NCBI RefSeq assembly: GCF_034120055.1
Contig: NZ_CP139368.1
Location: 3,472,001 to 3,536,000, forward strand
Direction of reading: 5' to 3'
DNA length: 64,000 nucleotides
From: Microbacterium rhizosphaerae
GTDB taxonomy: Bacteria > Actinomycetota > Actinomycetes > Actinomycetales > Microbacteriaceae
In this document: positions 56,496 through 59,943 of the stretch, in pieces
Position numbering within the stretch: position 1 is the stretch's first letter
How the letters are laid out: each line of letters starts with the position of its first letter
Notes under the pieces: generated by a model
What the model saw: only the letters and a program-made list of their open reading frames with translations
Told to the model about the DNA's origin: nothing
Databases searched by the model: none
Program-made: the position numbers and the translations under genes

Positions 56496-57512
56496 TCAGC
56501 CCCCGGGCGGAGCTGCGACCGAGCCGCGGTCGAGGTAGTGCGGGGGGAGGAGGTGCAGGCCCGGCTGCTGAGCACCCTCCTCGACAGCTGCGAGCGCCAG
56601 CTCGACGGCGAGGTCGCAGGACTCCTGGGCGACGAGCGGGACGCTGTCGATCGGGGTCGGCAGCGTGTCGGGATCGAGCGAGTTCGCCAGCGCGATGATC
56701 GACACATTCGCCGGGACCCGCAGTCCGTGGCGTCCCAGCTCGTCCATGACCGTCGTGAGCACCTCGGCCGGCGAGTGCACCGCGATGGCGGTGACGCCGG
56801 AGGCGACGAGGTCGCGCACGATGCTGCGCACCCGCGCAAGGTCGGGCGTCTCGACGCCGCTCGCCCGGAAGGCGTGCGCGAGGCCTCGCTCCTCGGCGCG
56901 CCGGGCGTAGGCGGACCGGACGCGCGGCGGGAAGTTGGACTTCTCGTATCCGACGGCGGGGAAGCCGATGAGCGCGATCGAGCCGTGGCCGGCGTCCGCG
57001 AATCGATCGACGGCGAGGGATGCCGCGGCCTCGAAGTCGAGGTCGACGCAGACGAGTCCCTCGCGGTCGTCGGGAACGCCGATGAACACCGTCGGCAGGT
57101 CGATCTGTCGCGCGATCCCGACCCGCTCGTCGTCGGGCGCGACGTCGAGGACGAGCACGCCGTCGACGAGGCCGCTGGACGCGACGCGGCGCATGCCCGC
57201 GGACGCCTCCTCCTCCGTCAGCAGGAGGATGTCGTATTCGCTGCGCCGCGCGGCGATCGAGGTCGCGAGCACGAAGGCCATGTGCGTCGGCGCGTGCGTG
57301 TCGGGACGGAACGGCTCGGTGAGCGCGAAGATGTTCGTCCGCCGCCCCGCGAGCATGCGGGCGCCGGCGTTGGGCCGGTAATCGAGGTCGCGCACGGCGG
57401 CCTCGACGCGCTGACGCGTCGCGACAGACACCGGCCGCTTGCCGCTGAGGGCATACGACACGGTGCTGATGGAGACGCCGGCGGCCTTGGCCACCTCGTC
57501 GATCTTCGCCAT
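56496..57512 (-). CDS. LacI-family repressor of the sugar operon
   Basis: 338 residues, ATG after AAGGGAG. The LacI-type HTH is KIDEVAKAAGVSISTVSYALSGKRPVSVATRQRVEAAVRDLDYRPNAGARMLAG with the minor-groove hinge helix at its end, then a periplasmic-binding-like effector domain (VDGVLVLDVAPDDER, IDLPTVFIGVPDD, ESCDLAVELALAAVEEGAQ). It has two operators in its own promoter and two before the ABC genes, so it should repress itself and the operon until a sugar (perhaps isoprimeverose or xylose) is present. Confidence 0.92.
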   Translation of the reverse strand: MAKIDEVAKAAGVSISTVSYALSGKRPVSVATRQRVEAAVRDLDYRPNAGARMLAGRRTNIFALTEPFRPDTHAPTHMAFVLATSIAARRSEYDILLLTEEEASAGMRRVASSGLVDGVLVLDVAPDDERVGIARQIDLPTVFIGVPDDREGLVCVDLDFEAAASLAVDRFADAGHGSIALIGFPAVGYEKSNFPPRVRSAYARRAEERGLAHAFRASGVETPDLARVRSIVRDLVASGVTAIAVHSPAEVLTTVMDELGRHGLRVPANVSIIALANSLDPDTLPTPIDSVPLVAQESCDLAVELALAAVEEGAQQPGLHLLPPHYLDRGSVAAPPGG

Positions 57513-57543
57513 CGGACTCCCTTGTCATTCCGCCGGATGTAGC

Positions 57544-57575
57544 TGTCGAAGCGCTTAGACGGAAACGCTTCGACA
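57544..57575. promoter_or_regulatory. LacI operators before lacI
   Basis: TGTCGAAGCG (57544-57553) and its exact inverted copy CGCTTCGACA (57566-57575) enclose two overlapping operator-like palindromes with centres 14 bp apart (57552/3 and 57566/7). Autoregulation is likely. Confidence 0.75.
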
Positions 57576-57681
57576 CGAAGATAGATCAGGTTCCGGCGAA
57601 GCGCAAGCGATTTGTGGGACCAGCCAACAATTTCCCTCGACGGGCCATCCCGCGCACGATTTGCGCGGGATGTGGACGAAT

Positions 57682-57760
57682 ATGACGTCATCGTCATACT
57701 TCGTCATGGACACTCGACGTCTCCGTGTGCTATTTGACGCTCGCCGTCATGATCCGTCAT
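57682..57760. repeat. CGTCAT box cluster upstream of the leader peptide
   Basis: CGTCAT occurs at 57686, 57692, 57702, 57745 and 57755. The first forms the perfect 10-bp palindrome ATGACGTCAT (57682-57691). Spacings of 6, 10, 43 and 10 bp suggest a regulator contacting one face of the helix. The last box overlaps the -10 region. Confidence 0.6.
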
Positions 57761-57763
57761 AAT
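57734..57763 (+). promoter_or_regulatory. Strong leaderless promoter of the Cys-rich leader peptide
   Basis: -35 TTGACG (57734-57739), 18-bp spacer, -10 CATAAT (57758-57763), ATG at 57771, 7 bases downstream. It is one of the best promoter matches in the window. Confidence 0.7.
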
Positions 57764-57770
57764 CGGCTCC

Positions 57771-57872
57771 ATGACTGACAACGCACGCCATCTGTCCGCC
57801 TGGGAGGCGAACGGGGCTGCCGGCTGCATGATGGCCGGCCGTGTTGTCATGTGCTGTCGAATGTGCAGCTGA
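57771..57872 (+). CDS. Putative Cys-rich leader peptide, 33 residues
   Basis: A short frame begins with the ATG at 57771, placed exactly where the strong upstream promoter should start transcription, and ends with TGA at 57870-57872. The sequence begins MTDNARHLSAWEANGAAG and ends CMMAGRVVMCCRMCS, so four of the last fifteen residues are Cys and Met is also frequent. Nothing here looks like a conserved domain. Its position, 200 bases upstream of a winged-helix gene with hairpins between, fits a leader peptide whose translation senses cysteine or sulfur supply. Leader peptides rich in Cys are known in actinobacterial sulfur regulation, but this one is assigned only by inspection. Confidence 0.55.
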   Translation: MTDNARHLSAWEANGAAGCMMAGRVVMCCRMCS

Positions 57873-58076
57873 GACGGTGACCACCGCCGGGCTCCCGCGC
57901 CGCGTCTGACCTGACGCTTCGAGCTACTCGGCGCCGAGCCCCCGAGACACCGGGATCCCGCGCTTACCCGCGCGCCCGCGTTGCCTCGCACCCGCCCTCG
58001 ATTCCGATACCTCGAGGGCCGCGCTCACAGCACGCGAACCCGACAATCGGGTTCCGCCCTTAAGGACAGCACTCCA
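57873..58076 (+). ncRNA. Structured leader RNA between the Cys-rich peptide and the winged-helix gene
   Basis: 204 bases with two clear hairpins: GCCCTCGA (57994-58001) with TCGAGGGC (58012-58019), 8 bp, and GAACCCGA, loop CAA, TCGGGTTC (58036-58054), 8 bp. The second is just before the ribosome site AAGGA (58063-58067). There is no T tract, so it would act on translation or through Rho rather than as a plain terminator. I see no known riboswitch consensus. Confidence 0.45.
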
Positions 58077-58883
58077 ATGACTACCGTTCTCGACGCTCCC
58101 GTCCGCACCGCGACATCGCCCGCTCCCGCCAATCCGGCGGAGGGCCTGCGCGCCTACGCCGCCCTGACCGCTGCGACACAGGGACCCACCGCCGCCCAGC
58201 AGCTCGCCGCCGCACGCGCCGCTGCCGCTCAGGAGGCTGCCGCTCCGGCCGCTCCCCGCGCCGGCCGCACCCTCCCCGCGGGCACCGCCCCGCGCGGCTT
58301 CGCCCTCTACGTCGGCATCGACGAGGCCAAGGCCGCGGCATCCGGTGTCTCCCTCGGCGTCCTCGTCGACGCCCTGCGCCGTACGCTCGCCGAGCTCGCG
58401 CCCGCGGCCGAGACCTACGCGACGGTCGCCCTCGCCCCGGCCGGCGCCGGCGGACGCGACGTCGACGTCGTCCGCCTCGCCCTGCACGAGCCGAGCGCCG
58501 TGGCCCGCACGAAGCCCGAGCCGGAGCCGGAGATCGAGACCTCCCCTGGCGTCATCGTCGACATCTCGCGCAAGCGCGTCGTGATCGACGGCGAGTCGGC
58601 CGCCTTCACCTTCAAGGAGTTCGAGCTCCTGCAGTACCTGGTGCTGCGCGAGGGTCGCACGATCGAGCGGGCCGAGCTCGTTTCGTCGCTGTGGCAGGGC
58701 TCGACCGACGACGACGCTCCGGGCGAGCGCACCATCGACGTGCACGTGCGGCGCCTGCGCGCCAAGCTCGGCCGCTACGAGGACATCGTCCGCACCGTGC
58801 GCGGTGTCGGCTACCGCTTCGACCGGCACGCGGACGTCGTCATCCGCTACGGTCACGGCACGCCGTCGCCGGACCGCTTCTGA
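58077..58883 (+). CDS. Orphan OmpR-type winged-helix regulator without receiver domain
   Basis: 268 residues, ATG at 58077 with AAGGA about 9 bases upstream. Residues 1-75 are Ala/Pro-rich and probably disordered. A middle domain (about 80-165) begins RGFALYVGIDEAKAAASGVSLGVLVDALRRTLAEL and is not a phosphoreceiver: the conserved Asp/Lys set is absent. The C-terminus (about 175-255) is an OmpR/PhoB DNA-binding domain, VDISRKRVVIDGESAAFTFKEFELLQYLVLREGRTIERAELVSSLW... RTIDVHVRRLRAKLG..DIVRTVRGVGYRFD. Regulation is likely by amount or ligand rather than phosphorylation, and the upstream leader is a candidate control. Confidence 0.85.
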   Translation: MTTVLDAPVRTATSPAPANPAEGLRAYAALTAATQGPTAAQQLAAARAAAAQEAAAPAAPRAGRTLPAGTAPRGFALYVGIDEAKAAASGVSLGVLVDALRRTLAELAPAAETYATVALAPAGAGGRDVDVVRLALHEPSAVARTKPEPEPEIETSPGVIVDISRKRVVIDGESAAFTFKEFELLQYLVLREGRTIERAELVSSLWQGSTDDDAPGERTIDVHVRRLRAKLGRYEDIVRTVRGVGYRFDRHADVVIRYGHGTPSPDRF

Positions 58884-58956
58884 CCTGCCGCCCTCCCCTT
58901 CGGGCCGGGCACGTCCGGTCCGGTCGCGTGTCGCGGCGCGCGCGTAGGGTGAGGGC

Positions 58957-59943
58957 ATGACGTCGACACTCCCGCCGCGCGTGCCGCGACCGCTCGGCGC
59001 GCGGAGGGATGCGGTCGTCGTTCCGGCCGGGAAGCCCGTCGAGACGGGGTACCGGCCGACGGGACCCGTGGATGTGCGCAGCACGCTGCTGGCCCATCGA
59101 CGAGGGCCCGGCGATCCGACGATGCTGGAGGATGCCGGCATCATCTGGCGCGCCGCACGGACTCCGGGCGGCATCGCCACGCTCGCGATCACGATGTCGA
59201 GCAGCTCGGTCCGCGCCGTCGCCTGGGGACCCGGGGCCGAGTGGACGATCGCTCAGGTGCCGGCGCTGTGCGGCGCCGACGACGATGCGACGGGCTTCGA
59301 CGCGTCGCTGCATCCCCTGATCGCCGAGGCCCACCGCCGCAATCCGGGCCTGCGGATCGGGCGCACCGACCTCCTCTTCGACGCCCTCGCCGGCTCGATC
59401 ATGGAGCAGAAGGTGACCGGGCTGCAGGCGTTCGGCGCGTGGCGGCGCATCCTGCAGTGGTGCGGCGAGCGCGCACCAGGACCGACGCCGCGTCCGATGT
59501 TCGCACCCCCGCCGATCGACGGCTGGCGCAGCATCCCCTCCTGGACCTGGCACCGCGCCGGGCTGGAACCGCCGCAGTCCCGCACGATCGTGGCCGCCGC
59601 CTCGCGCGGGCGGTCCATCGAGCGCGCGATGGCCGGAGTCACGGACGGCGACGATCGCGACCGCATCCTCACCAGCCTGCAGGGCGTCGGGCTGTGGACG
59701 GCTGCGGAGACGCGCATCCGTGCCTATGGCGACCCGGACGCGGTGAGCGTCGGCGACTACCATCTCGCCCACGAGGTCGGCTACGCGTTGACCGGATCGC
59801 GCACGGACGACGACGGGATGCTGGCGCTCCTGGCGCCCTGGGCGGGCCAGCGTCAACGGGTCATCCGCCTCATCGGGCGTGCCGGAGCGCGCGAGGCGCG
59901 ACGCGGGCCGCGCCTGCATCCCGAGGATCACCGCAGCCGCTGA
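58957..59943 (+). CDS. AlkA-like DNA-3-methyladenine glycosylase (HhH-GPD)
   Basis: 328 residues, ATG at 58957 with TAGGGT (58945-58950) 6 bases upstream (leaderless). It is base excision repair glycosylase-like: RTDLLFDALAGSIMEQKVTGLQAFGAWRRI and the helix-hairpin-helix with catalytic Asp in LTSLQGVGLWTAAETRIRAYGDPDAVSVGDYHLAHEVGYAL. The N-terminal 100 residues carry the extra domain of the AlkA group. It probably removes alkylated purines. The C-terminal tail is Arg/His-rich. Confidence 0.9.
   Translation: MTSTLPPRVPRPLGARRDAVVVPAGKPVETGYRPTGPVDVRSTLLAHRRGPGDPTMLEDAGIIWRAARTPGGIATLAITMSSSSVRAVAWGPGAEWTIAQVPALCGADDDATGFDASLHPLIAEAHRRNPGLRIGRTDLLFDALAGSIMEQKVTGLQAFGAWRRILQWCGERAPGPTPRPMFAPPPIDGWRSIPSWTWHRAGLEPPQSRTIVAAASRGRSIERAMAGVTDGDDRDRILTSLQGVGLWTAAETRIRAYGDPDAVSVGDYHLAHEVGYALTGSRTDDDGMLALLAPWAGQRQRVIRLIGRAGAREARRGPRLHPEDHRSR

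Follow-up and report, generated by a model that had tools for sequence, protein, structure and literature searches.

The window that we analyzed is a 64,000-nucleotide stretch of DNA from Microbacterium rhizosphaerae. It contains a short frame with a cysteine-rich end and, on the same strand, the gene for an orphan winged-helix regulator (Table 1). A preliminary description of this DNA had proposed that the strongest promoter of the region starts transcription at the ATG of a 33-residue, cysteine-rich leader frame. We found the frame as described, and the region 56800-59500 has just one match to a consensus (sigma-70-like) promoter, as compared to 0.1 in shuffled sequences. The leader's ATG lies 7 nt past the -10 box of this promoter. 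From this geometry, we infer that the transcript starts at the ATG, and the frame is probably translated from the transcript's first codon, without a ribosome-binding site. On the other strand, and divergent from the leader, is a LacI-type regulator (56499-57512), adjoined by frames resembling sugar transport genes at 53-56 kb.

Table 1. Features of the leader and regulator locus, in coordinates of the window
Feature	Position	Strand	Details
Candidate operator 1	57692..57707	+	CGTCATACTTCGTCAT, direct repeat CGTCAT-N4-CGTCAT
Leader promoter	-35: 57734-57739; -10: 57758-57763	+	TTGACG, 18-nt spacer, CATAAT
Candidate operator 2	57745..57760	+	CGTCATGATCCGTCAT, in the -35/-10 spacer, overlaps the -10 box
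Leader frame	57771..57872	+	MTDNARHLSAWEANGAAGCMMAGRVVMCCRMCS*, 33 codons, end MCCRMCS
Local hairpin in the coding part of the leader	57792..57814	+	Codons TCC GCC ... GAG GCG AAC; predicted in the fold of the window
Cys/Met tract	57849..57866	+	ATG TGC TGT CGA ATG TGC (Met-Cys-Cys-Arg-Met-Cys)
Hairpin with 8-bp stem	57994..58019	+	GCCCTCGA 57994-58001 / TCGAGGGC 58012-58019
Second, alternative complement of the Cys codons	58027..58033	+	ACAGCAC, ~50 nt before the regulator's ATG
Hairpin ahead of the ribosome site	58036..58054	+	GAACCCGA 58036-58043 / TCGGGTTC 58047-58054
Shine-Dalgarno of the regulator	58062..58066	+	AAGGA, from the sequence; relatives similar
Anti-tract	58065..58072	+	GACAGCAC, predicted to pair with 57851-57858 (GTGCTGTC)
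Orphan winged-helix regulator	58077..58883	+	268 amino acids, no Cys; Pfam Trans_reg_C

The leader's stop codon and the regulator are separated by 204 nt, with two strong hairpins. These had been proposed in the preliminary description, and we found them at exactly the same coordinates, with pair probabilities of 0.91-1.0 except for the two end pairs of the second hairpin (0.54 and 0.75). The hairpin ahead of the ribosome site is also found in relatives, in the forms GAACCC/GGGTTC and GAGCCC/GGGCTC (read by eye and uncounted). Overall, 57771-58106 folds better than 100 of 100 shuffled sequences (z = -3.34). In a search of 57400-58200 against Rfam, there were just two chance-level matches, far under the gathering scores, and Rfam had no match at E = 0.1 for three of the other loci (L085, L181, and L121). 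The leader peptide did not match any known family.

The regulator's only recognised domain is Trans_reg_C, an OmpR-type winged helix (E = 1.4e-20). Pfam recognises no receiver domain, which bears out the earlier claim of an OmpR-type gene without a receiver. In the structure model, the winged helix is mostly well modelled (pLDDT ~90), while the N-terminal half is modelled poorly, and there is no confident receiver fold. The closest solved chains (8hml, 8hig, and 8hih) have generic names only, among the matches listed. The OmpR/PhoB-type orphan regulators, such as GlnR, have the same kind of winged helix. GlnR lacks a working phosphorylation site but retains the receiver fold, whereas the regulator from the window has no receiver that Pfam recognises. 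We found the regulator in 193 of 199 Microbacteriaceae genomes (E = 1e-45) and in all 61 genomes that we searched from another family. We call this family Micrococcaceae because close relatives are named Arthrobacter and Pseudarthrobacter.

Conservation of the leader

To compare leaders, we collected 110 regulator loci: 30 from relatives (including the window's own genome) and 80 from named genomes, nearly all of them Microbacterium and a few under other labels. Two loci with too little upstream DNA (L035 and L087) were left out. We then used an open scan for short frames with at least two cysteines in the last 12 residues. All 108 usable loci have the same leader, with 31-37 residues and CRMC at or near the end; these represent 73 distinct peptides and 76 distinct leader DNAs. 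In all 108 loci, an xATAAT box ends 6-7 nt ahead of the leader's ATG, with TTGAC or TTGCC ~18 nt upstream of this -10 box. The cysteine-rich, MCCRMC-like end is kept and the rest of the peptide varies, which is the pattern that the preliminary description had taken as support for a leader.

Among the 76 distinct leader DNAs, the last two cysteine codons, the CGA, and the ATG are always present, and the first cysteine codon is present in 72; adjacent cysteines (Cys-Cys) also occur in 72 of the 76. The codons of the local hairpin are as constant (TCC, GCC, GAG, and GCG in 76 each, and AAC in 75). The cysteine codons alternate between TGT and TGC, the changes in length are all multiples of three, and the stops TGA, TAA, and TAG are all used. 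These three patterns argue that the leader is selected as a frame. CGA accounts for just 2.1% of the arginine codons in Microbacterium regulator genes, yet it is constant in the leaders that we read across the Microbacteriaceae, and RNA pairing is a likely reason. The window genome has two other matches to TGYTGYCGAATG, which we rejected as further leaders as their host frames are unlike a leader.

Within the wider family, we searched with a profile built from 12 leaders (E = 0.01 or better). It matched 136 of 199 Microbacteriaceae genomes, from 64 of 85 genera, at one place in each. Roughly 58 genomes with the regulator had no match to the leader. We fetched 14 of these and scanned them for short frames with Met/Cys-rich ends, and 13 have an upstream leader that ends in a cysteine cluster, and in most of them the body differs (ends include ...SVLCRMCA, ...SSAMCCRMCA, ...VMCCRMHA, ...DMCACRMCCCC, and ...ACARMCCCN). 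No such frame was found in the remaining genome (L316). CGAATG is present in all 13 of these diverged leaders and in all 47 of the leaders from other genera that we had read earlier. Outside Microbacterium, adjacent cysteine codons are usual, with single-Cys exceptions such as VLCRMCA, VMRCRMCA, and VDMRRMCA. A crude pattern for the -10 box, which is a simple one, matched upstream of 22 of the 47. Wherever we read the flanks, the regulator lies 3' of the leader on the same strand, except at L118, where the contig ends. The family-wide conservation of the frame, together with its fold as compared to shuffled sequences, confirms that the leader is real and not due to chance.

Some members of the family have features of their own. 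The leader at L321 has a tandem MMPVL repeat (GMMMPVLMMPVLMMPVLMMPVLMMPVRAVACCRMCA), which is an in-frame expansion of the Met part, and three diverged leaders have extra cysteines after Arg-Met (RMCCCC or RMCCCN in L322, L323, and L325; the genome of L323 is 1.4 Mb). In many other genera and in the family that we label f7, a gene that we take to encode uracil phosphoribosyltransferase is just upstream of the leader (L144, L117, L128, L133-L136, L148, L149, L151, and L155-L158, among others). It is not beside the Microbacterium leaders that we read.

When run on 198 genomes sampled from across the order, the profile found nothing at E < 0.01 outside the Microbacteriaceae; 11 matches at E = 0.02-0.1 were not accepted as leaders. 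We also examined 41 Micrococcaceae loci (the best 30 of the 61-genome search and 11 more). In 33 of these, a frame ends with RM and two residues, mostly after two or three cysteines (as in RCCRMHA and MCCCRMQA), and in the other 8, no such frame was found. CGAATG is at the expected place in 35 of the 41. In f7, 4 of 7 loci (L304, L306, L310, and L144) have short frames with fewer cysteines (one or two), ending in MPMLCVRDLTC (two loci), MAMPCVRGAH, and AIAMMRCVRGLR.

Two other explanations for this conservation seem far less plausible than a translated leader. First, the conserved element could be a structured RNA or a regulatory 5' end that merely happens to contain the short frame, as CGA, TCC GCC, and GAG GCG are invariant at the nucleotide level and bases of the leader pair downstream (see below). 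We consider this very unlikely given the length steps of three, the use of all three stops, and the synonymous changes of the cysteine codons; also, the cysteine end persists where most other letters differ. Second, the amino acid conservation within the genus could indicate a small working protein, such as a peptide that binds metal or that partners with the regulator. This is hardly credible for a peptide whose length goes from 22 residues up, whose N-terminal part is very variable between genera, which belongs to no known family, and which is present in one copy per genome and adjoins the regulator wherever we read it.

Predicted pairing of the cysteine codons

In mycobacterial leaders, cysteine codons reportedly pair with the downstream ribosome-site region. 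In the window, a stretch within the Met-Cys-Cys codons that extends to the first base of CGA (57851-57858) is predicted to pair with the anti-tract, which touches the Shine-Dalgarno (SD), with a probability of 0.93-0.95 for each pair. This helix is present in both the minimum-energy and the centroid folds. The sister locus L031 carries this complement too, in the corresponding position. Many relatives have their complement at the position of the window's alternative site, for which the window's own pairing probability is just 0.04.

We used ensemble folding to compare the pairing of the Cys-Cys-Arg-Met tract with positions -75 to -20 relative to the regulator's ATG in natural and shuffled spacers. 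The mean was 0.479 for 95 Microbacterium (0.097 when shuffled; 82 were above), 0.370 for 35 Micrococcaceae (0.074 when shuffled; 32 were above), and 0.265 for 40 loci from the rest of the Microbacteriaceae (0.102 when shuffled; 24 were above), although one of these 40 (L113) comes from Microbacterium too and the start codons of some are doubtful; all of these counts overstate the evidence, because related sequences share ancestry and are not independent. Along the leader, pairing peaks at the Cys-Cys-Arg-Met codons. By this measure, the scores of the window's copy and L031 are low (0.07 and 0.04), as their pairing partner is closer to the start of the regulator.

The best complement of the tract starts at -72 to -44 in 57 of 95 Microbacterium relatives, as compared to 46 of 95 for the reversed tract and 6, 15, and 20 for three other stretches of the leader. 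When leaders were swapped within Microbacterium, pairing favoured the locus's own leader in the TGTTGC group only. A scan of the whole spacer for the longest duplex gave a weak signal (mean z = -0.58). Tests of the tract in single sequences reached p < 0.05 for 20 of 95 Microbacterium and 13 of 34 Micrococcaceae. RNAalifold found little in a plain alignment of the 95 leaders because the spacers align badly.

In the Micrococcaceae, the leader's CGAATGC faces a conserved GCATTCG ~45 nt before the regulator's ATG, followed by a small hairpin and then the ribosome site. In an alignment of 34 sequences, this structure is 83.6% paired, versus 24-38% after a shift of 1-3 columns. The base after CGAATG and its partner are C-G in 29 sequences, U-A in 3, and U-G in 2, so they are never unpaired. 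Just 1 of 500 shuffles reached the covariation score. There are 4 pairs with changes on both sides; 108 of 500 shuffles gave at least as many, and sliding by one column gives 6. The covariation as such is modest.

The Met codons may pair as well. For the Met-Met-Met codons of Microbacterium leaders, the predicted pairing with the SD and start region has probabilities of 0.28-0.34, versus at most 0.05 over most of the leader. Elsewhere in the family, the corresponding values (0.10-0.13) are barely above the background, and this pairing is absent in the Micrococcaceae. If the Met codons are masked in the computed Microbacterium folds, then the opening of the stretch from the SD to the AUG rises from 0.473 to 0.579 (up in 43 of 95 and down in 10). 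In contrast, masking the Cys codons did not increase the mean opening of the SD in the 95 Microbacterium (from 0.382 to 0.388) or in the 35 Micrococcaceae (from 0.373 to 0.281), nor the opening from the SD to the AUG in Microbacterium (from 0.473 to 0.469). For the window, masking at three Cys positions changed the opening from the SD to the AUG from 0.48 to 0.51-0.62, and that of the SD alone from 0.58 to 0.40-0.45. On average, the computed folds do not support simple unmasking, in which a ribosome on the Cys codons opens the SD.

There are two further alternatives. One is control at the level of transcription, for instance by Rho-dependent termination in a C-rich spacer, with the leader ribosome shielding or exposing the loading site. 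This would fit with the ribosome site not opening on average when the Cys codons are masked. Also, no intrinsic terminator was found in this region of the window, and in both families the spacer past the stop is long and, by eye, C-rich. We consider transcriptional control to be somewhat unlikely, as the Cys codons are predicted to find their partners mainly close to the ribosome site, which in the window means right next to the SD.

The other alternative is that the nascent peptide itself stalls the ribosome and senses free cysteine or a metal (for example, copper) via its Cys and Met residues, instead of charged tRNA. TnaC and the copper-sensing leader CruR are parallels for this kind of stalling. 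Cys and Met are thiol and thioether ligands, the last residues of the peptide are the most conserved, Met triplets often occur 12-14 residues from the end, and the f7 tails have M-x-C-x-R-like ends with few cysteines. But the body varies widely in diverged genomes, the tails grow to RMCCCC or shrink to VLCRMCA, and the Met triplet (in Microbacterium) and the CCRM codons coincide with the predicted RNA pairing, so their conservation can be explained without the peptide. Overall, sensing by the peptide seems quite unlikely.

The preliminary description had proposed that the two spacer hairpins would be the switch. The hairpins are present, but the hairpins alone are not the best candidate: in our models, the likeliest switch is the long-range helix between the Cys codons and the ribosome-binding region of the regulator.

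Candidate binding sites of the regulator

The two candidate operators at the leader's promoter (Table 1) are the only sites in the window that match CGTCAT-N4-CGTCAT within one mismatch. The more general pattern YGTCAY-N4-YGTCAY matches 29 of 96 distinct regions upstream of Microbacterium leaders (0.03 in shuffled sequences) and 5 of 30 regions upstream of serC (0.00 in shuffled sequences), but none of 98 control regions after the regulator. The serC regions are from 30 of 39 genomes, and serC was identified by an NCBIfam equivalog above the cut-off. The pattern is upstream of the leader in just 2 of 44 loci from other Microbacteriaceae genera and in none of 41 Micrococcaceae, so this operator is not common to all. 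It is also found upstream of the four f7 leaders.

Matches near other genes are more scattered. In L278, L293, and L298, YGTCAY-N4-CGTCAY lies ~90-105 nt upstream of a gene for a dicarboxylate/amino-acid symporter (of the DctA/GltP kind), and the 16-mer from L278 and L293 occurs again in G005 and G014. At the symporter gene of the window's genome, there is a half-site only. We did not count a match near genes that we take to encode sulfite reductase and sirohydrochlorin chelatase, as it is at the 3' end of another gene and ~580 nt off. We inspected two loci with the recurrent TGTCATGAAGCGTCAC and dropped it because in one of them it precedes what is presumably a ribosomal protein gene.

Two other upstream elements were seen. 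A long element, TGAGCAATCTGTCACATTYCGTCAT, is present at about -90 to -62 relative to the leader's ATG in many Microbacterium species (by eye), but not in the window's copy; by pattern, its core is at about -75 in 35 of 96 regions, and the element contains an operator-like repeat. Upstream of some Micrococcaceae leaders are TTGTTAC repeats, ~20 bp apart (by eye; for example, L142 and L143), which are a possible operator of another sequence.

The regulator probably binds CGTCAY-N4-CGTCAY sites and probably controls its own promoter, and it may control serC. As cysteine takes its carbon from serine, there may be an indirect link through serC from the leader to cysteine metabolism.

Relation to known leaders and proposed mechanism

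In mycobacteria, leaderless frames with contiguous cysteine codons are cysteine-responsive attenuators (Canestrari et al. 2020, as cited in PMC9031893, PMC9094748, and PMC13236596). These polycysteine leaders precede cysteine genes, and six were predicted in one genome, according to the account in PMC9094748. The mycobacterial leaders and ours share a frame at the transcript's first codon (here by promoter geometry), adjoining cysteine codons near the end, a downstream gene on the same strand, and pairing of the Cys codons with the region of the downstream ribosome site (reported there, predicted here). Ours differs in that there is one per genome and that the downstream gene encodes a transcription factor, not a protein of cysteine or sulfur metabolism. 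Also, unlike in the mycobacterial leaders, its Cys codons are followed by a conserved Arg(CGA)-Met.

Another similar leader is the metL leader of Streptomyces lividans, a leaderless peptide of 29 residues that ends with ...RCMCRRMCAF and precedes the methionine import operon metNIQ; as described in PMC8079986, it has no typical intrinsic terminator, and its authors class it as methionine-dependent. Its end is much like the ...VMCCRMCA of our leaders, with no likeness seen in the rest of the peptide, and both leaders appear to be leaderless (ours by promoter geometry) and have no typical intrinsic terminator. Within the literature that we searched, CMCRRMC occurs only in PMC8079986. Ribosome stalling also induces whiB7/wblC, which drive antibiotic resistance factors, via transcription attenuation (PMC13236596, with Lee et al. 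2022 as its reference). There too, an actinobacterial transcription factor gene is under the control of a translated frame upstream of it, but the account in PMC13236596 mentions no Cys tract.

A literature search by title and the start of the abstract, with most subscription papers outside its range, found no earlier description of our leader. The preliminary description had offered it as a candidate for an undescribed control system, which is correct in part: the cysteine-attenuator device is known from mycobacteria, while the family-wide leader and its placement before a transcription factor are new as far as we found. With the same scope, what is new is that a regulator is the target, that each genome has one copy, and that the predicted pairing has CGA-ATG as an arm.

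Taken together, we think it fairly probable that this frame is translated from a leaderless transcript and serves as a cysteine-codon attenuator of the transcription factor gene that follows, with the sensing of cysteine being the inferred part. If charged Cys-tRNA were short, then ribosomes would wait on the leader's Cys codons and cover them, which would alter the fold around the regulator's start and hence the amount of regulator that is made. By analogy with mycobacteria, it is somewhat more likely that cysteine shortage would raise the regulator than lower it.

More tentatively, and at a little less than an even chance, the leader and the regulator could form a two-step relay. One Cys/Met leader per genome would sense charged Cys-tRNA and set the level of the receiver-less winged-helix factor, which would then signal to many CGTCAY-N4-CGTCAY promoters, including its own and that of serC. 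Across two or more families of a single actinobacterial order, the factor would then take its input from the ribosome, in place of the receiver domain that it lacks.

Cysteine-codon leaders were previously known as local brakes on individual cysteine operons. If our reading is true, it would give a first handle on a regulator whose relatives have generic names only, among the matches listed. It would also offer a testable reason for the constant but rare arginine codon, with CGA as one arm of an RNA helix. And with one leader before a near-universal orphan regulator, the ribosome would be the input of a whole regulon.
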